32,157 nt of DNA from positions 1-32,157 of the forward strand of contig CADDZL010000009.1 of NCBI GenBank assembly GCA_902812335.1. The letters are read 5' to 3'. Source of the stretch: Chloroflexota bacterium. Lineage in GTDB: Bacteria; Chloroflexota; Anaerolineae; DSLN01. Both the position numbers and the translations under genes were made by a program. Positions 7,474-18,489 of this stretch are shown piece after piece; within the stretch, counting starts at the first letter, position 1; each line of letters starts with the position of its first letter. The notes beneath the pieces were generated by a model, which searched no databases, was not told where the DNA came from, and saw nothing but the letters and a program-made list of their open reading frames with translations.

Positions 7474-8139
7474 CTATGAGGACAGCCAGCCCTCTCGCAC
7501 AGCGATCACGGCGGCCTCGGTGCGCGAATGAATGCCCAGTTTTTCGTAGATATTGGCCAGATGGCTCTGCACGGTGCGGACGCTGATGAAAAGCGCCTGG
7601 GCGATGTCCCGGTCGCTCAGGCCGCGTGCCAGATAGGTCAGCACTTCCCGTTCTCGGGCTGTAAAATCCTTAAGGCTCGGGCCGGGCTCCTTGGTAGCGT
7701 GGCCAGCCAGACGGGCGACGAGGCCTGGAACAATCGCCGGGTGCAGGGTTAACTCACCCCGGCCAACGGTATGCACTGCGCGCACCAGTTCGTCTGGGTC
7801 GGCATCGAGGGGCAGGTAGCCAATGGCGCCGGCGGCCAGTGCGGCCTGAACGCGCTCCGGGCGGGTATCCGGCGACACGACCAGCACGGGGATGTCTGGC
7901 CGGGCAGACCTCAGGCGCTGCACTCCAGAGGCACAATCCTGGCTCGCCGTGCTATCGCTGCTGATCACCACATCCGGTTGAAGTCGTAACAGCAGTGCCA
8001 GCGCCTGGTCTACATCTGCGGTCAGCCCCACGATGTACAGGTCCTCGTCTCGGGCCAGCAGCAGTCGCAGCCCTTCAAGGGCCAGCTTGTGTGGGCAGAC
8101 GATCAGAATACGAAGCTGCTGTCTGGGGGTGGGTTCCAT
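7474..8139 (-). CDS. LuxR/NarL-type DNA-binding regulator with degenerate receiver domain
   Basis: The 221 residues comprise an N-terminal receiver-like domain (about 10-125) and a clear C-terminal LuxR helix-turn-helix (about 157-214), with FTAREREVLTYLARGLSDRDIA and VRTVQSHLANIYEKL. The receiver lacks the phosphorylation chemistry. The acidic pair after strand 1 is Cys15-Pro16. The expected phospho-Asp is Ser61, with Asp62 one place later. The conserved Lys after strand 5 is Leu111. It is therefore probably an atypical regulator, controlled by a ligand, redox state or partner rather than by phosphotransfer. The gene lies 32 nt after the HMA-like gene on the same strand and likely shares its promoter with the 11-bp repeat array. 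Confidence 0.88.
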   Translation of the reverse strand: MEPTPRQQLRILIVCPHKLALEGLRLLLARDEDLYIVGLTADVDQALALLLRLQPDVVISSDSTASQDCASGVQRLRSARPDIPVLVVSPDTRPERVQAALAAGAIGYLPLDADPDELVRAVHTVGRGELTLHPAIVPGLVARLAGHATKEPGPSLKDFTAREREVLTYLARGLSDRDIAQALFISVRTVQSHLANIYEKLGIHSRTEAAVIAVREGWLSS

Positions 8140-8171: not shown

Positions 8172-8426
8172 TTACCGCACACTGGGCGGGCCGGCTTTGA
8201 AGCCGGCGCGTTCGACCACGGCGACGAGTTGGTCCGGATTCGTCCGTCTGGGGTCATACTCGATGTACGCCATCTCGATGACCGGATTGACGTAAACCCG
8301 CACCACCCCGGGAGCGCGTGTCAGAACGCGCTCGATAATCAGCCCCCCGCCACAGGCAAGATCGTAGATGGGCAGCGTAATGCGTTGGTTCTTCACGCTC
8401 GTTTCCATTTCAGGTCGTGTGTTCAT
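8172..8426 (-). CDS. Heavy-metal-associated (HMA)-like domain protein with one cysteine
   Basis: This 84-residue protein has the ferredoxin-like HMA pattern: a first strand (RITLPIYDLAC), a helix (IIERVLTRAPGV), strands (VVRVYVNPVIEMAYIEYDP), then a second helix ending VERAGF. Metal-binding members have GMxCxxC. Here only Cys25 remains, in LACGGG, and the second Cys is Gly. It may bind metal weakly as a dimer, or serve another role such as sensing. AGGAGG stands 6 nt before the ATG at 8426. It is the first gene downstream of the CTGAGG direct-repeat promoter and is followed by the LuxR-type regulator. Confidence 0.8.
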   Translation of the reverse strand: MNTRPEMETSVKNQRITLPIYDLACGGGLIIERVLTRAPGVVRVYVNPVIEMAYIEYDPRRTNPDQLVAVVERAGFKAGPPSVR

Positions 8427-8467: not shown

Positions 8468-8522
8468 AGAATAGCCCCATTCCCTGAGGCACAACTGAGG
8501 CAAATCTGAAGGTTTGCTGAGG
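8468..8522 (-). promoter_or_regulatory. Four direct repeats at 11-bp period plus -10 element, promoter of the HMA/LuxR operon
   Basis: On the plus strand CTGAGG occurs at 8484, 8495 and 8517, with CTGAAG at 8506: four half-sites exactly 11 bp apart. Read on the transcribed minus strand these are CCTCAG-type repeats. They end 10 bp before a TATTCT -10 candidate (8468-8473), so the last unit overlaps the -35 position. OmpR/PhoB-family response regulators bind such tandem direct repeats with 11-bp spacing and activate from this position. An almost identical array precedes the amidase gene. Confidence 0.75.
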
Positions 8523-8545
8523 ATTTACGAAATCAGTCGGCAGCA

Positions 8546-8566
8546 GCCAGTGGTCAGTAGTCAGAC
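8546..8566. repeat. Short heptameric repeat in intergenic DNA
   Basis: Three diverged 7-nt units (GCCAGTG, GTCAGTA, GTCAGAC) lie between the HMA promoter and the amidase terminator. They are of the same general class as the units inside the ABC ATPase gene. No gene is visible in 8523-8664. Confidence 0.45.
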
Positions 8567-8664
8567 TGATCACAGGGCTCTTCACGCTGGCGATTATGAA
8601 GGCTCATCGTAGAGCACGCCCTGTTTTGCCGCATATCCATAATCGAAGGTGTGCTGCGCATGGA

Positions 8665-8704
8665 ATCCACCCTAGCCGATACCAAAGTATCGGCTAGGGT
8701 GGAT
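8665..8704 (-). terminator. Perfect 18-bp hairpin after the amidase gene
   Basis: Two 18-nt arms (8665-8682 and 8687-8704) are perfect reverse complements around a 4-nt loop, beginning 7 nt downstream of the amidase stop codon. The position suits a transcription terminator for the minus-strand amidase gene. No run of T follows on the transcribed strand, so a processed 3' end or an inserted palindromic repeat are alternatives. Confidence 0.6.
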
Positions 8705-8711
8705 TGGGGAA

Positions 8712-10844
8712 CTATGAGGACAGACAGACTGTTAGGGAGGCGTCATCGATCCAAAGCGAGGTGACGCCGTCGCGACCGTTGTTATATGAGCCAAAGCGGA
8801 TAGTGACCGTTTGCCCGGCAAACGCGGTGAGGTCAAACTCAGCCTGCTGCCATGTCCCGGCATTGCTATGCTCCATGAGGAGCGTATGCCACGTCCCACT
8901 CTCGTCCCGCATCACGACATACTGTGAGTCATTTACTGGGTCATCGGTGAGAGGCAGCCACCCAAAGCGCAGAATAGCGCTGGTCGCCTGGGCGGGGATG
9001 CTCACGCTCTGCTCGATGGATGAATAGCTGTCCATGTTCCAGCCACCGGGCGGGACGCCGGTGAGTATAGACCGACGGCCACCGTCGTGGCGCAGGTCGG
9101 TGTATGTAGCCACGCGTTCGGTGACGTTGATGGTCCAGCCGCCATCGCTCTCGAAATCGCCATTGGTGAATAACTCCTGGCAAGCGCTCGGGGGCGGCGT
9201 CGCGCCCGAATCGGGGGTGGTCCCCGGCTTGGGAGTAGGTGGTGCAGGCGTGGGTGATGCACCCTGCCCGACCGTCACCGTTACATCCAGCGTCGGGCTG
9301 CCCCGATCCGCGAACCAGGTGACGTTCTCCTGGACCATATCCCATTTGAGCATATAGACGCCTGGCTTGCCTGGCGCCGTGAGCCGGATATTAAGGCTGA
9401 CCTCCTCAGAGGGGCCCAGATCACGCGGCAATGCTTTGCGGTGGTCGTCCTCTGGCGGCTGGATGACCTGCTGGCTATTCTGGTCATACCAACGGTAGCC
9501 CAGGTGAACAGGGTGATCGCCGCTGGCGGGCCAGGTCATCGAGCCGGTGTTGCGGACCGTGACATTGACCCGGACGGTCTGGTGAGGAGCGATGGTCATG
9601 GGGGTAGTGTGCGCGCCGAACTGGGCGCGCCGCGCTGGCAGCGTGCCCTGCTGCATGAGCTGCCGCGTCGCCTGGCGAATTGGGTCGAGATCGACATAGA
9701 GATAATCGCCGGGGCAGGAGGTGATGTCATAGTCACGGTGCCCGGCGATATTGGGCGCCGTCACATCTATGAAGAGGCTCTGGCCCAGCGGGTCAATGCC
9801 GTTGCGCGCCGCCACCCAGGCGCAGAGCTTCGCGATGGCGTTGACGAGTGTGGATGAGGGGTCCGTACTACCGGAAGCATTGCCGAAGGTGCCCAGCACG
9901 CCGATGCCGACACTACCGACGTTGTAGGAGGTCGTGTGGCCGCCGACGACATTAGCACCGCCAGCGCGTCCTTCGTAGATGTTGCCGTAGCGGTCTACCA
10001 GGTAGTTATAGGCGATGTCGCCCCAGCCGCGGACGACGGCATGGTAGTAGTAAATCGCGCGGACTATCGCGGCTGGATCGGCCTCATCATTGCCGGTAAC
10101 GGTATGGTGGATGATAATCTTCCGCACCGGGCTGTACTCCGGCGGCCAGGTCATCCAATCCTCGTTCGCGCCCCACTCTGCTCGCGAAATGATGGTTGGC
10201 TGGGGGACGTTCTGAGCTTCTATCGGTGCACTGAGACCCGCACTACGAGCAGACCTCGACTGGCGGGTCTGTGCCGATCCCATGATCTGAGCGGTGCTCG
10301 GTCCGCGTGAGGCATCAATGGGGACGAGGCTGAGTGCTCTGAGCGTCGGTAGGTGATTGTTTGGGCCTCTGAAACGGACGCGGGCCTGTGCCCAGCGTTC
10401 GCCCGGTGCGGCGGTGATCAGGTTCTCAAAGGACCGGCGGCCATCGCCGTCGAGTCCCGGCGTATACAAGGGTGCCCAGGGCGACCAGTGTTCGGTGTCC
10501 GCCCCGCTGCGCACTTCGATCACCAGATCGGTGTCTTGCGGAATATCGGCATCCAGGCGCACGGCCAGAGCAGTGGGAGATAGACTCAGGAAAGTTGGGG
10601 CGGACCAGGCTCTCATGTCCCCTCCCCCGCCCTGCCTGACGTTCCCCGGCGGGCCTTCCTTCAACTTCGAGGCGTCTGCTATGCCGGCGATGATTTCAGA
10701 AGAGGCCTTCTCTGAACGCATGATCAGGCCGTAATAAGGCAGAAGGATAGGGATCCCTGTCGCGACTGCCGCCCCAGCGGCGATGCGCAAGAAGTCGCGG
10801 CGGCTGAGCAATTTAGGATCATCTGAAATGACGCCAATGTTCAT
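8712..10844 (-). CDS. Tat-exported PGRP-type N-acetylmuramoyl-L-alanine amidase with Ig-like and C-terminal binding domains
   Basis: This secreted peptidoglycan amidase of about 710 residues starts with a Tat signal (SRRDFLR, then a hydrophobic core to about 42). After a spacer domain comes the PGRP/amidase_2 domain (about 213-400). Its zinc ligands are His246 or His247 in IIIHHT, His369 in AGHRDYD and Cys377 in TSCPGD, with Tyr279 in the DIAYNYLVD region. Residues about 405-525 form an NBR1-like Ig domain (TVRNTGSMTWPASG). A Pro/Thr linker leads to a jelly-roll-like C-terminus (about 555-708, NGDFESDGGW). GAGGAG lies 7 nt before ATG 10844. The upstream in-frame ATG at 10859 falls in that ribosome site and is rejected. 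Its promoter has the 11-bp repeat array, implying control by the adjacent two-component system. Confidence 0.92.
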   Translation of the reverse strand: MNIGVISDDPKLLSRRDFLRIAAGAAVATGIPILLPYYGLIMRSEKASSEIIAGIADASKLKEGPPGNVRQGGGGDMRAWSAPTFLSLSPTALAVRLDADIPQDTDLVIEVRSGADTEHWSPWAPLYTPGLDGDGRRSFENLITAAPGERWAQARVRFRGPNNHLPTLRALSLVPIDASRGPSTAQIMGSAQTRQSRSARSAGLSAPIEAQNVPQPTIISRAEWGANEDWMTWPPEYSPVRKIIIHHTVTGNDEADPAAIVRAIYYYHAVVRGWGDIAYNYLVDRYGNIYEGRAGGANVVGGHTTSYNVGSVGIGVLGTFGNASGSTDPSSTLVNAIAKLCAWVAARNGIDPLGQSLFIDVTAPNIAGHRDYDITSCPGDYLYVDLDPIRQATRQLMQQGTLPARRAQFGAHTTPMTIAPHQTVRVNVTVRNTGSMTWPASGDHPVHLGYRWYDQNSQQVIQPPEDDHRKALPRDLGPSEEVSLNIRLTAPGKPGVYMLKWDMVQENVTWFADRGSPTLDVTVTVGQGASPTPAPPTPKPGTTPDSGATPPPSACQELFTNGDFESDGGWTINVTERVATYTDLRHDGGRRSILTGVPPGGWNMDSYSSIEQSVSIPAQATSAILRFGWLPLTDDPVNDSQYVVMRDESGTWHTLLMEHSNAGTWQQAEFDLTAFAGQTVTIRFGSYNNGRDGVTSLWIDDASLTVCLSS

Positions 10845-10981
10845 GTCGGTTCTCCTCATTGCCTGTTACCAACGTTGGATAATCCCAATGGTGAGCCTGC
10901 CTAACCCTTAATGGAGCTCAGGCACGGGTTGTGGCTGTACATAGGGCTGATCCTCGCCAACCACTTGCCGACATGCTGCAG

Positions 10982-11035
10982 GATCTATGCCCTTTCCTGA
11001 GGGCGAGCTGAGGCTCACTTGAGGATTAGCTGAGG
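10982..11035 (-). promoter_or_regulatory. Four direct repeats at 11-bp period plus -10 element, promoter of the amidase gene
   Basis: CTGAGG occurs on the plus strand at 10997, 11008 and 11030, with TTGAGG at 11019: again four half-sites at exactly 11 bp. The array ends 9 bp before a TAGATC -10 candidate (10982-10987) for the minus-strand amidase gene, copying the layout at 8468-8522. The array sits immediately downstream of the kinase gene of the OmpR-type two-component pair. Confidence 0.75.
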
Positions 11036-11069: not shown

Positions 11070-12494
11070 TCAGGCGTTGACTGGGAGCGAAACTACGGCG
11101 GTCGTGCCACGGCCCGGCTCGCTGGTGAGACTGATGTGACCGCCGTGCTCCTCGACAATCCAGTGGGCGATGGATAGACCGAGTCCTGTGCCGCCCGGAT
11201 CACGGCTGCGAGCCGGGTCGGCACGATAGAAGCGCTCGAAGACATGCGGCAGGTCTTCCGGGGGGATGCCAACGCCGGTGTCGCGGACGATGATTTCGGC
11301 GCTGCCATCGTGGCGCTGCAGCCCGAGCGTCACTTGTCCTCCAGCAGGGGTGTATTTGAGCGCGTTGTCCAGGAGGATCAGCACCAGTTGCTTGAGACGG
11401 TCCTCATCGGCCATAACCTTGACCGGCTCGAATGGCTCGAGGATAAGCGTCTGCCCCTGGGCAAGCTGGCGTGCCTCGCGGAAGGCATCCAACACAACTG
11501 CGTCAAGGTCAACGGGCCGACGCTTAAGGTGAAGGCCGGCATCGGCCCGCGCCAACGCCAGCAGGTCGGCGACGAGGCGGGTCAGACGGCCGGCCTCGCG
11601 TTCCGCCTCAGCCAGCGCCTCGGCTCGATCCGCTTCCGACATGTCCTGCTGGCGGCGCAAGAGTTCCAGGTTGCCCTGGATGGCGGTCAAGGGGGCGCGC
11701 AGTTCGTGGGAGGCATCCGAGACAAAACGCTGCTGCAGGCGGTAGGCCGTTTCAAGGCTCGCCAGCATTTCATTGAACGTCTCGGCCAGGCGACCGAGTT
11801 CATCACGGGAGGGTGGTGCTTCGATACGGCGTGAGAAATCGCGTGACAACGCAATGGCCCGTGCCGTCTGGATCATCCGGCTGATCGGCCCGAGCGCCCG
11901 CTTAGCGACTGCCCAGCTCCCGACGAGTGCTGCGGCCAAGCCGGCCACTCCCATCAGGAGCAAGATGGCGCGCAGCCGCGCCATCGAGGCATCCAGCCGA
12001 CCCAGGGGGGCCAGTGCCTCGATATACCCGGCGACGATCCCATCACGCTGGAGGGGCAGGATGTAGACACGCCAACGCTGTTCAGCCGTGCTCAGCAGGC
12101 CAAAAGCCCCGCTACCGGGCGCGGGTGGGGGGCCGGTCAGCGGCGGTACGAGCCCGGCCAGGGCGTCGAAGGCCGGGCCGGCTGGCGTCCTGAGCACGGC
12201 CTGAGGGTCAATAGGTGGTAGTATCCCCGCACCAGGTGAGGCTTCTCGTAAGACGCCCGTGGGGTCGTAGAGGCGCAAAGCGACCTCAAGGCCGCCACTC
12301 CCTTCAACGAGGTGAGGCTCGGCGGTCAGGAGGGCGGTCTCGGCAACGGCGTGGCTGGCGCTCGTCACGAGCGCGCGGTCGAGGTCATCGTAATGCCCGC
12401 GGGCGTGGAAGGCATAGCTCAGCAGCCCAACGAGCAGGAGCACCAAGGCAAAGAGGCCCCCATACCACAGGGCCAGGCGCAGGCGGATTGACAC
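11070..12494 (-). CDS. Membrane sensor histidine kinase (HAMP-HisKA-HATPase)
   Basis: This 474-residue kinase has two membrane helices (about 10-29 and 174-194) enclosing an extracytoplasmic sensor region of about 145 residues with Pro-rich loops. A HAMP domain follows (about 195-250). The dimerisation/phosphoacceptor domain has SDASHELRAPLTAI, with His263 as the phosphorylated residue. The ATPase domain has N-box LLDNALKYT (Asn377), G1 DTGVGIP (Asp405) and G2 GGTGLGLSI (435-442), all intact. It lies 38 nt downstream of the OmpR-type regulator gene. The sensor region has no recognisable motif, so the stimulus is unknown. The putative targets suggest cell-envelope or metal stress. Confidence 0.94.
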   Translation of the reverse strand: MSIRLRLALWYGGLFALVLLLVGLLSYAFHARGHYDDLDRALVTSASHAVAETALLTAEPHLVEGSGGLEVALRLYDPTGVLREASPGAGILPPIDPQAVLRTPAGPAFDALAGLVPPLTGPPPAPGSGAFGLLSTAEQRWRVYILPLQRDGIVAGYIEALAPLGRLDASMARLRAILLLMGVAGLAAALVGSWAVAKRALGPISRMIQTARAIALSRDFSRRIEAPPSRDELGRLAETFNEMLASLETAYRLQQRFVSDASHELRAPLTAIQGNLELLRRQQDMSEADRAEALAEAEREAGRLTRLVADLLALARADAGLHLKRRPVDLDAVVLDAFREARQLAQGQTLILEPFEPVKVMADEDRLKQLVLILLDNALKYTPAGGQVTLGLQRHDGSAEIIVRDTGVGIPPEDLPHVFERFYRADPARSRDPGGTGLGLSIAHWIVEEHGGHISLTSEPGRGTTAVVSLPVNA

Positions 12495-12532
12495 TGGTTA
12501 CCTTGATCCCTCTGAATAATCCGTCGAGTCCC

Positions 12533-13207
12533 TTATTCCTCGCGCAGCGCGTAGCCCGCGCCCCGGATCGTGTGAAGCAGTCGTGGTTCACCTTCCGCCT
12601 CAAGCTTCTGGCGCAACTGCTTCACATACACCTCCACGACGTTCGCGTTGCCGCCGAAGTCATAGCCCCAGATCCGGTCGAGCAAGACCTCCTTCGAGAG
12701 CACCTGCCGGGGGTGTAAGAGGAACTCTTGAAGCAGCTTGAACTCCAGGCTCGTCAGAGGGATGTCGCGCCCACCACGACGGACGGTATGGCTGCCGGTA
12801 TCAAGTGTGAGGTCGGAGAAGCGCAGCACCGGCGGCTGCTCGGCGTCTCGCCGCCGCAGGAGAGCGCGCACGCGCGCCAGGAGGACCTCAAAGGTGAAGG
12901 GCTTGACAACGTAATCATCTGCGCCGGACTCCAGCCCCTGCACCTGGTCGGCTGGGGCATCCTTCGCCGTCAATAGAAGCACGGGCAGCCGTAGGTCGGC
13001 GGTACGCAGGCGCTTAAGCACGTCCAGGCCGCTCAGCCCTGGCATCATGATGTCCAGGATGACGAGGTCTGGGGGGCGTTCGCGGGCGATCGCCAGCCCG
13101 GCCTCACCCGATCCCGCTGTGTCAACCGTAAAGCCCTCATAAGACAGGCCGCGCTTGAGCAAGCTGGTCACAGCGGGATCGTCGTCAATCACCAGGATAC
13201 GCTGCAC
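12533..13207 (-). CDS. OmpR-family response regulator
   Basis: This 224-residue regulator has an intact receiver: acidic pocket VIDDD (8-10), phosphoacceptor Asp52 in VILDIMMPG, Thr80 and Lys102 in VVKPF. A winged helix-turn-helix fills about 127-222 (LTSLEFKLLQEFLLHPRQVLS, and VVEVYVKQLRQKL followed by the RGAGY wing). It is the partner of the kinase encoded next. Members of this family bind head-to-tail half-sites 11 bp apart. That is precisely the geometry of the arrays at 8484-8522 and 10997-11035, so I infer that this protein controls the amidase and the HMA/LuxR operon. No such array precedes its own gene. Confidence 0.95.
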   Translation of the reverse strand: MQRILVIDDDPAVTSLLKRGLSYEGFTVDTAGSGEAGLAIARERPPDLVILDIMMPGLSGLDVLKRLRTADLRLPVLLLTAKDAPADQVQGLESGADDYVVKPFTFEVLLARVRALLRRRDAEQPPVLRFSDLTLDTGSHTVRRGGRDIPLTSLEFKLLQEFLLHPRQVLSKEVLLDRIWGYDFGGNANVVEVYVKQLRQKLEAEGEPRLLHTIRGAGYALREE

Positions 13208-16728: not shown

Positions 16729-17700
16729 CTACCATCCCAGTAGCAGGGCGGTCCCGGCCATCGTCCGCCTGGCGCACTCGTCGAACGATGGCAGGTGCCC
16801 GGCCGCTGGCGCGAAGGCGATGACCAGCAGGACGATGAGCCAGGTCAGGCTTACCCCCAGCCTCGGCAGGGGAAAGAGGGGCTGGGGGCGTGCGGGATCG
16901 AGGAGCGCCAGCAGCCGCGCCTCAGTCACACTGAGTTGGCCTATGAGGGTGAACTCCGGCAGGGGAGCTGGATGGACAGCGAGCAACTTGCGTAGCGCGC
17001 GTGCCAGCGGCAGGGCGTCGCCCATAGTGTGCACCGCGTGGTCATCGGCCGCGATCTCTTTGGCGACGCAATAGCCCCCCCCCAGATCGCGCGCCACCGG
17101 AACGAAGAACAATGCCCGGCTCAGACAGCGCACTACCAGGATCTTCAGCGGGTCATACGCACCCAGGTGATGCGCTTCGTGCCGCAGCACGGCCTCCAGT
17201 TCTTCATCCGTTAATACGCGCAGTAGTTCGGTCGAGAGCCAGACTTTCGGCCTAAATAGACCATGCGTGAAGACCAGTGGGCGGCCGGCGCAGGTGAGGA
17301 CCACGCTTTCGGTCAGACCGCACTTCTGTGCCAGACGGCGCAGGCGCGGCGTCGGTGCACAGCGGGTGACTGCAAGCGGCGCCATCCACCGCCGCGTCAT
17401 CAGCGTGAGGCGTAGAGCCTCGCCAACTGCTAAGATAAGACCAAGGCCCAGCGGCAGGAGGAACGACAGGCGGCCTAAGTCCCCACCGTGCGCTACCATC
17501 TCATCCAGCGTCCGGCGGCAAACCGTCACAACCAGCGCCAGCGTCGCTTCCGACCCCCGTTCCGATAAAGCCAACCCGAGGACGACGGCCAGCGTCGCCA
17601 GTGCGGTGAGCAGCGCCAACGCCACATCGGCGCGACGCCAGAGCTTGCCCTGAGCTTGCGAAGGAAGGGGCGCGCCCTGAACTGTCGAAGGGTCAGGCAC
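16729..17700 (-). CDS. M56-family membrane metallopeptidase (BlaR1/MecR1-like), without sensor domain
   Basis: This 323-residue protein has hydrophobic segments at about 25-46, 77-97, 185-200 and 290-310. The zinc protease motif HEAHH (His174, Glu175, His178) comes after LTDEELEAVLR, and the third ligand is likely Glu215 in AKEIAADDHAV. Full BlaR1 proteins are near 580 residues with a penicillin-binding sensor domain, which is absent here. It is therefore a short M56 protein that probably cleaves the BlaI-type repressor encoded just before it. The GTG start at 17700 overlaps the blaI stop by 8 nt. Residues 2-19 are encoded by a small dispersed repeat (17648-17692), so the native N-terminus may have been shorter. 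Confidence 0.88.
   Translation of the reverse strand: MPDPSTVQGAPLPSQAQGKLWRRADVALALLTALATLAVVLGLALSERGSEATLALVVTVCRRTLDEMVAHGGDLGRLSFLLPLGLGLILAVGEALRLTLMTRRWMAPLAVTRCAPTPRLRRLAQKCGLTESVVLTCAGRPLVFTHGLFRPKVWLSTELLRVLTDEELEAVLRHEAHHLGAYDPLKILVVRCLSRALFFVPVARDLGGGYCVAKEIAADDHAVHTMGDALPLARALRKLLAVHPAPLPEFTLIGQLSVTEARLLALLDPARPQPLFPLPRLGVSLTWLIVLLVIAFAPAAGHLPSFDECARRTMAGTALLLGW
17648..17692. repeat. Paired small repeat at the blaI/M56 junction
   Basis: Two related 18-nt units, CCCTGAGCTTGCGAAGGA (17648-17665) and CCCTGAACTGTCGAAGGG (17675-17692), are direct repeats 27 nt apart. They form the first codons of the M56 gene and stop just before the blaI stop codon. The CCTGAGC...CGAAGG core also appears in the repeat at 21340-21407, which points to a dispersed repeat family. 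Confidence 0.6.
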
Positions 17701-18115
17701 GGCGACTTTTACCTTCGACCAGTTTGCGTTCGACCAGTGTCGCCAGGTCGCTCAAGCGGGCACGGTCGCTTTCGGCGACGGCGTCCACAAACTGCGCGAT
17801 CACCGCCGGACCGAAATCGGCGATCAGGCCATTGAGCACCTGCCGTGACAGGTGCTCGAACAGTTCTTCGCGAGTGAAGCGCGCCTTATAGACGAAGGCG
17901 CGTGAGACCTTGCGGCGTTCGAGGAAGCCCTTGGTCACGAGGCGGTTCATCACGGTCATCACCGTTTTGTAGTTGGCGTGGCCGCCCAGGTGATCCACCA
18001 CGTCTTGCACAGTCGGTTCGTCCAGGGCCCAGATTGCGTTCATGACCCTGGCTTCGAGTTCACCGAAGAGCCGCGAGAGGCCGTGTTGGTTTAGGCGAAA
18101 GGCACGGAGGTGCAT
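17693..18115 (-). CDS. BlaI/MecI-family transcriptional repressor
   Basis: With ATG 18115 the protein is 140 residues, the usual BlaI length. The winged helix region has LEARVMNAIWALDEPTVQDVVDHL, the recognition helix NYKTVMTVMNRLVTKGFLERRK, and the wing RAFVYKARFTREE. The C-terminal dimerisation helices cover about 75-135. AGGAG lies 6 nt before the start. An upstream ATG at 18175 is rejected because it lies beyond the promoter. It is followed, with 8 nt overlap, by the M56 protease that would cleave it. A palindrome covering its own -10 (18132-18152) implies autorepression. The target could be metal, redox or antibiotic stress; the neighbouring genes favour redox. Confidence 0.93.
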   Translation of the reverse strand: MHLRAFRLNQHGLSRLFGELEARVMNAIWALDEPTVQDVVDHLGGHANYKTVMTVMNRLVTKGFLERRKVSRAFVYKARFTREELFEHLSRQVLNGLIADFGPAVIAQFVDAVAESDRARLSDLATLVERKLVEGKSRRA

Positions 18116-18131
18116 CGTAGGCTCCTGATCG

Positions 18132-18152
18132 GGATTATATACTATATTATCC
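18132..18152 (-). promoter_or_regulatory. blaI promoter with overlapping palindromic operator
   Basis: A 21-bp near-perfect palindrome (nine of ten paired positions) starts GGATTATATAC on the plus strand. Its minus strand contains a consensus TATAAT (18135-18140), preceded after 18 bp by TTGGTT. The palindrome ends 16 nt upstream of the blaI start, so a bound dimer would occlude RNA polymerase. Confidence 0.65.
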
Positions 18153-18171
18153 ATCAGAACCAATGGCGTCC

Positions 18172-18489
18172 TCACATGATTACGCCCACGCCCACGAGTG
18201 CGATGGTCGCGCCCATCAGATCAAAGCGGTCAAGGCGCCAGCGCTCGAATACCATTCCCCACAAGATCGAAAACACGACGAAAATGCCGCCATAGGCCGC
18301 GTAGATGTGCCCGAATGCGGCTTCACTTTGGAATGTGGGAATCACACCGTAGAGAAACAGAACCGCACCGCCCAGGATGCCGAGTAAAATTCCCCTACCC
18401 TCGCGCAGTCATTGCCACACGAGGTGCCCACCACCCATCTCCGCCAGGCTCGCGGCAACGAACAGGGCGAGACCACGAATGATTTCCAT
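18172..18489 (-). pseudogene. ynfA: ynfA (UPF0060) family membrane protein, interrupted by an in-frame TGA
   Basis: Reading from ATG 18489 gives MEIIRGLALFVAASLAEMGG, the start of the four-helix UPF0060/YnfA family (small multidrug transporter-like). At 18409-18411 a TGA occurs where relatives have Trp (VWQ-stop-LREGRG). The frame then continues perfectly through LYGVIPTFQSEAAFG, HIYAAYGGIFVVFSILWG and FDLMGATIALVGVGVIM to a TGA at 18172, totalling about 105 codons against a family norm near 108. AAGGAG sits 7 nt before the start. TGA ends many other genes here, so recoding to Trp is unlikely. A TGG-to-TGA nonsense change or a base error explains it. It lies upstream of blaI on the same strand. 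Confidence 0.88.

Follow-up and report, generated by a model that had tools for sequence, protein, structure and literature searches.

What are two short arrays of direct repeats doing in this window, by which we mean the whole 32,157-bp stretch of Chloroflexota DNA that was analysed, and which protein reads them? A preliminary description had proposed a local regulon of two promoters under the OmpR-type regulator encoded next door. Our analysis suggests a broader answer. We consider it likely that the arrays are operators of that OmpR-family two-component system (11070-13207), which would respond to copper and would activate a copper-defence regulon by tandem binding.

The arrays and their promoters

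We scanned the window for four CTGAGG units at an 11-bp period, tolerating up to three mismatches over the four units. Exactly two arrays were found, at 8484-8522 and 10997-11035, with one mismatch each. The deviating units are CTGAAG at 8506 in the former and TTGAGG at 11019 in the latter. The identical pattern had no match in 100 shuffled versions of the window, so that the four half-sites and their exact 11-bp period stand as first described, with a chance expectation of zero. The half-site itself needed revision: the repeated CTGAGG unit is real, but its true core is the 5-mer CTCAG (CTGAG on the plus strand) and the sixth base is not fixed. The spacers vary within and between the arrays, and are unconstrained except that C or G is slightly favoured following CTCAG.

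The arrays are rare in the source genome. A scan of the assembly (3.52 Mb in 370 contigs, 94% complete with 7% contamination) revealed five arrays in total, all in one shared strand sense, while the reversed control motif had no match in the same 3.52 Mb. Relaxed genome scans, with either four units and three mismatches or three units and one mismatch, added nothing to these five. The five arrays are confined to two contigs, both of which carry copper and redox genes. Two lie in the window (contig C9) and three on C12, a contig of 29 kb. A comparison of C9 and C12 found no overlap, and the contigs are unjoined in the assembly.

Table 1. Features around the two arrays of the window, all on the minus strand.
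Feature	Position	Strand	Basis or remark
LuxR/NarL-type response regulator	7474..8139	-	Pfam GerE and Response_reg; follows the HMA-like gene after 32 bp
84-aa HMA-like protein with one Cys (LACGGG), encoded first past the array	8172..8426	-	Pfam HMA 22.0 bits, cut-off 24.8
-10 hexamer TATTCT	8468..8473	-	Sequence; +11 from the last half-site (10-bp gap), register as in 46/53
Four-unit CTCAG-N6 array, candidate operator of the HMA-like/LuxR-type promoter	8484..8522	-	Pattern scan; units at 8484, 8495, 8506 (CTTCAG variant) and 8517
Tat-type secreted peptidoglycan amidase, predicted target of the second array	8712..10859	-	Pfam Amidase_2 72.4 bits
Weak -10 candidate TAGATC	10982..10987	-	Exception list; one base nearer than the usual register
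Four-unit CTCAG-N6 array between the kinase and amidase genes	10997..11035	-	Pattern scan; units at 10997, 11008, 11019 (CTCAA variant) and 11030
Sensor histidine kinase, predicted copper sensor	11070..12494	-	HAMP, HisKA, HATPase_c
OmpR-family response regulator, predicted array binder	12533..13207	-	Pfam Response_reg and Trans_reg_C; tree; PhoP alignment

A -10 element had been suggested 9-10 bp from each array. It is clear for the array at 8484, whereas the array at 10997 has only a weak candidate (Table 1). To place these promoters in context, 53 arrays from genomes with the two-component pair were aligned at their last half-site; the -10 played no part in their selection. A NANNNT hexamer begins exactly 11 bp past the last half-site in 46 of the 53, and no other single offset has one in more than six. 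The seven exceptions include the amidase array. With the -10 hexamer set at -12 to -7, the last half-site spans about -27 to -23 and the third about -38 to -34, so bound protein would cover the -35 region. Class II activation by OmpR-family proteins uses such a layout.

Genes behind the arrays

Two of the C12 arrays, at 13154 and 21811, are directly upstream (52 and 60 bp) of P-type ATPase genes. The first of these ATPases (copA1), which starts 52 bp from its array, passes the copper-translocating model TIGR01511 (595 vs 397 bits). The second is split across two reading frames; TIGR01511 matches the N-terminal portion, below the cut-off. This split (C12 19131-21750, L006/L007) reflects a frameshift or an assembly error. 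The third C12 array, at 2119, precedes a short IS-interrupted gene that is followed by a transposase gene (region 729-2281, L006), which appears to truncate it. Other genes of C12 encode Lgt, a cupredoxin and another OmpR-type pair. Two further copper ATPase genes in the genome (on C173 and C43) have no array. Cu+ P-type ATPases are among the array targets, as in a copper regulon, and arrays likewise precede copA in G707 and G544.

Across the genomes that carry the pair, the first genes behind arrays include those for YHS-HMA copper ATPases, the single-cysteine HMA-like protein (in the source genome and, as orthologues, in G168, G676 and G453), Lgt, cupredoxin, DUF305-like and beta-propeller proteins. 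The regulator gene is among them too. The longest ORFs were taken as genes here, and for relatives many of the names were assigned by eye. In the HMA-like family, a single-cysteine L.CGG replaces CxxC. The family recurs behind arrays (8172-8426; L127:3549-4103, L163, L208) and matches no curated family above the cut-off. Also recurrent behind arrays is a lipoprotein family with the pattern DTHSVDL..GGHHR (L006:9330-9881, L168, L169, L172, L174, L209), which has no Pfam or NCBIfam match and whose copy in the source genome lies downstream of copA1.

In the window, the HMA-like and LuxR/NarL-type genes are probably co-transcribed, judging from the short distance between them. The receiver domain of the LuxR/NarL-type regulator is atypical near the expected phospho-acceptor (DVVISSDSTAS), and the protein may therefore not be phosphorylated in the usual manner. 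The amidase has a TAT_signal match of 21.1 bits, below the cut-off of that model. Elsewhere in the window, a BlaI-type repressor gene and an M56-type peptidase gene form a pair (16729-18175).

These targets change the picture of the proposed regulon. Both window promoters belong to it, but with five arrays genome-wide it is larger than two promoters and centred on copper. The metal- or redox-type signal proposed at first is retained as a metal signal, which the target genes narrow to copper as the likely inducer. The proposed link to envelope remodelling through the amidase is weaker than first suggested: it is not conserved, as no array was found at the amidase homologues of relatives, and the -10 is poor. 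The amidase would be a lineage-specific regulon member with a weak -10.

Candidate binders of the arrays

The OmpR-type regulator and kinase described next to the arrays were confirmed. The regulator gene (receiver and Trans_reg_C) adjoins that of a HAMP-HisKA-HATPase kinase and every domain scores above its Pfam cut-off, as in an OmpR/PhoB-family two-component system. Regulators of this family read direct repeats in tandem with a period of about one turn (10-11 bp), and repeats of that kind are found at the predicted targets of the window regulator and near its orthologues. No array was found upstream of the window's own regulator gene, and autoregulation is thus unsupported in the window.

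Conservation of the arrays beside this pair was assessed in relatives, with orthology based on identity, synteny and one tree. In G168, an Anaerolineae metagenome assembly, one array immediately precedes a regulator and a kinase orthologous to those of the window, with 79% and 63% identity respectively, the latter including the sensor. The HMA-like orthologue (45%) also has an array immediately before it, in a neighbourhood with a further regulator of the window regulator's clade and a multicopper-oxidase-like gene. With the kinase sensor as query for orthologues across 400 genomes of the phylum, 18 orthologous kinase loci were fetched and contained 20 arrays (four CTCAG units, at most two mismatches), compared to 0-1 for permuted motifs, from which register shifts of the array were excluded. 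Arrays directly after the orthologous kinase gene were also found in G666, G458, G509, G516 and G507, while no nearby array was found at the orthologous loci in G648, G403 and G407.

Whole-genome scans revealed arrays in 15 of 15 genomes, 13 of them chosen by kinase and two (G168 and G134) by arrays, and control matches in none of the 15. The 12 array matches of G453 all fall in a stretch of roughly 40 kb of a single contig. Across the 400 genomes searched with the kinase sensor, arrays with at most one mismatch occurred in 8 of the 14 with the kinase (E <1e-29) vs 24 of the 386 without it (p 1.5e-6; the test assumes independent genomes, which holds only in part). Several of these 24 are cases of simple repeats, and in G447 (L241) a kinase with 52% identity lies beside the array. 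A scan of named genomes yielded only one kinase orthologue. The array is conserved beside orthologous regulators of distant relatives, being directly upstream of the pair in G168 and near it in most of the phylum genomes that carry it.

The source genome encodes 32 OmpR-type DNA-binding domains. Among 57 regulators placed in a tree, that of the window belongs to an 18-row clade (100/99). One supported group (100/98) unites this clade with a nine-row clade (100/99), whose regulators are found at CTCAG arrays with MacAB-like efflux genes. The array and the kind of regulator are nearly all that these two sets of targets have in common, from which we argue that the regulator reads the array. The sister operons of regulator and kinase have CTCAG arrays before their own genes and before MacA/MacB-like efflux operons, forming a second, non-copper regulon (L040, L046 and L111-L118; G031, G002, G303, G230, G389, G186, G342, G310, G173). 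In 18 of the 24 sister-group arrays the -10 is at +11, the same register as in the copper-type arrays.

A different OmpR-type regulator of the source genome, with or without cross-regulation, would be an unlikely main binder of the arrays. One such candidate is a paralogue on C63. The tree places it in the supported group of the window regulator (100/98), its recognition helix is similar, and in the DNA-binding domain it shares 66% identity with an array-adjacent regulator of G031. The genome scans found no array near it, however, and it is a possible second binder. The other candidate is the BaeR-like regulator of C12. It sits between the two array-led copA genes but falls outside the array-adjacent group in the tree, and was ranked second as the cognate regulator by tree and neighbourhood. 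In relatives, it is the window-type pair that is the conserved neighbour of the arrays.

It is far less probable that the arrays are bound by another kind of protein or are non-functional repeats. The window does contain a BlaI/CopY-type gene (17693-18175), and a few other genomes have matches that were set aside as simple repeats (G047, G646, G561 and G664). Against this, the spacers vary, the chance expectation is zero, permuted controls are nearly empty and the distance to the -10 is fixed, while two unrelated target sets have the arrays and the regulator group in common. As the array binder, an OmpR-type protein is favoured over the BlaI/CopY-type repressor by the tandem direct repeats and the conserved neighbour.

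The best solved structural relative of the window regulator is PhoP of Mycobacterium tuberculosis (PDB 5ed4, 3r0j). On TCACAGC-N4 repeats, PhoP forms a tandem dimer, extendable to a trimer and tetramer (PMC4832192). The present arrays would be read in a similar tandem manner through the half-site nCTCAGc, which equals TCACAGC except for A to T at one base. PhoP controls the PhoP regulon, whereas the present arrays precede copper targets. The recognition helix resembles that of PhoP: in the alignment, Asn212, Val213, Glu215 and Tyr217 of PhoP are kept, Ser216 is replaced by Val and Tyr220 by Gln. The base at the A/T position is contacted in PhoP through water by Asn212 and Ser216, and the pairing of Ser216 to Val with A to T in the half-site is suggestive.

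Signal, mechanism and known systems

Two histidines of the kinase, His30 and His48 in window numbering, occur in all of the 14 copper-type kinases compared, whereas the five MacAB-type kinases aligned lack them. They are a candidate metal site, consistent with copper as the signal of the kinase. The window pair could also control the arrays in response to envelope or redox stress, with the copper genes only part of its regulon. This resembles the MacAB-type sister systems, in which MacAB-like efflux genes and the operon of the system itself are under regulators at CTCAG arrays, and one window target is a peptidoglycan amidase. Yet the targets of window-type pairs are mostly copper ATPases along with HMA-like, cupredoxin and multicopper-oxidase neighbours, and the two histidines are specific to the copper-type kinases. 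We regard an envelope or redox signal as slightly less probable still than a different OmpR-type binder.

For the copper-responsive system, we propose that periplasmic copper, and perhaps silver too, would activate the kinase, which would phosphorylate the regulator. Each CTCAG half-site would be occupied by one regulator protomer in a head-to-tail row that covers the -35 region and the DNA before it, with a fixed 10-bp gap to the -10. The bound regulator would act as an activator rather than a repressor, recruiting RNA polymerase to the copper-defence promoters. The regulon would include two CopA-type ATPase genes, the HMA-like protein with the LuxR-type regulator, the transposase-cut gene and, in the present lineage, the peptidoglycan amidase.

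The closest parallels are partial. CopRS of Corynebacterium glutamicum is an OmpR-family pair with an 11-bp tandem repeat of 9-bp units and a 2-bp gap (PMC3353115, PMC3140484). As in the proposed system, a tandem direct repeat is the site from which it activates its own genes along with those for a copper ATPase and a multicopper oxidase. It has two units, TGAAGATTT, at one intergenic site, whereas four CTCAG units occur here at five separate promoters, and both its half-site and its phylum differ. CusRS/CopRS of Escherichia coli and Pseudomonas likewise place copper efflux and oxidase genes under two-component control (PMC11195947). Their operators are palindromic and single, e.g. TGACAAnnTTGTCAT (PMC11195947), unlike the four-unit direct repeats found here, and the window pair falls short of the heavy-metal models for the regulator (TIGR01387, 222.6 vs a cut-off of 279.2 bits) and the kinase (TIGR01386, 220.0 vs 292.55 bits).

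MtrAB/MprAB of Actinobacteria are alike in the general architecture of regulator and kinase, and MtrA is the top NCBIfam match. The pair scores below the MtrAB models as well (NF040689, 224.1 vs 300 bits; NF040691, 210.1 vs 450 bits). MtrA also reads an 11-bp tandem repeat, but with the sequence (A/G)TAACAAT and with different targets. The MprA motif of C. glutamicum, TKTTAAGAAM (PMC12113857), does not match CTCAG. Since the pair is below both the heavy-metal and the MtrAB cut-offs, we file it only as an OmpR-family system with a predicted copper function. Searches of a library of open-access papers returned no CTCAG operator, no Chloroflexota copper regulator and no copper two-component regulon in this phylum.

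The arrays and the pair very probably form a copper-response circuit that has not been described so far. The chances are evenly balanced that it represents a phylum-wide Chloroflexota copper regulon, with a four-protomer CTCAG operator, a two-histidine copper-site kinase, a single-cysteine HMA-like protein and a lineage-specific amidase. Compared with PhoP, the Ser-to-Val change in the recognition helix is paired with A to T in the half-site, which makes this element of the OmpR-family recognition code concrete and open to testing. Chloroflexota are a large and mostly uncultured phylum, and because the operator is nearly free of background and its -10 register is fixed, copper-linked genes, including unknown ones, can be listed from metagenome assemblies.
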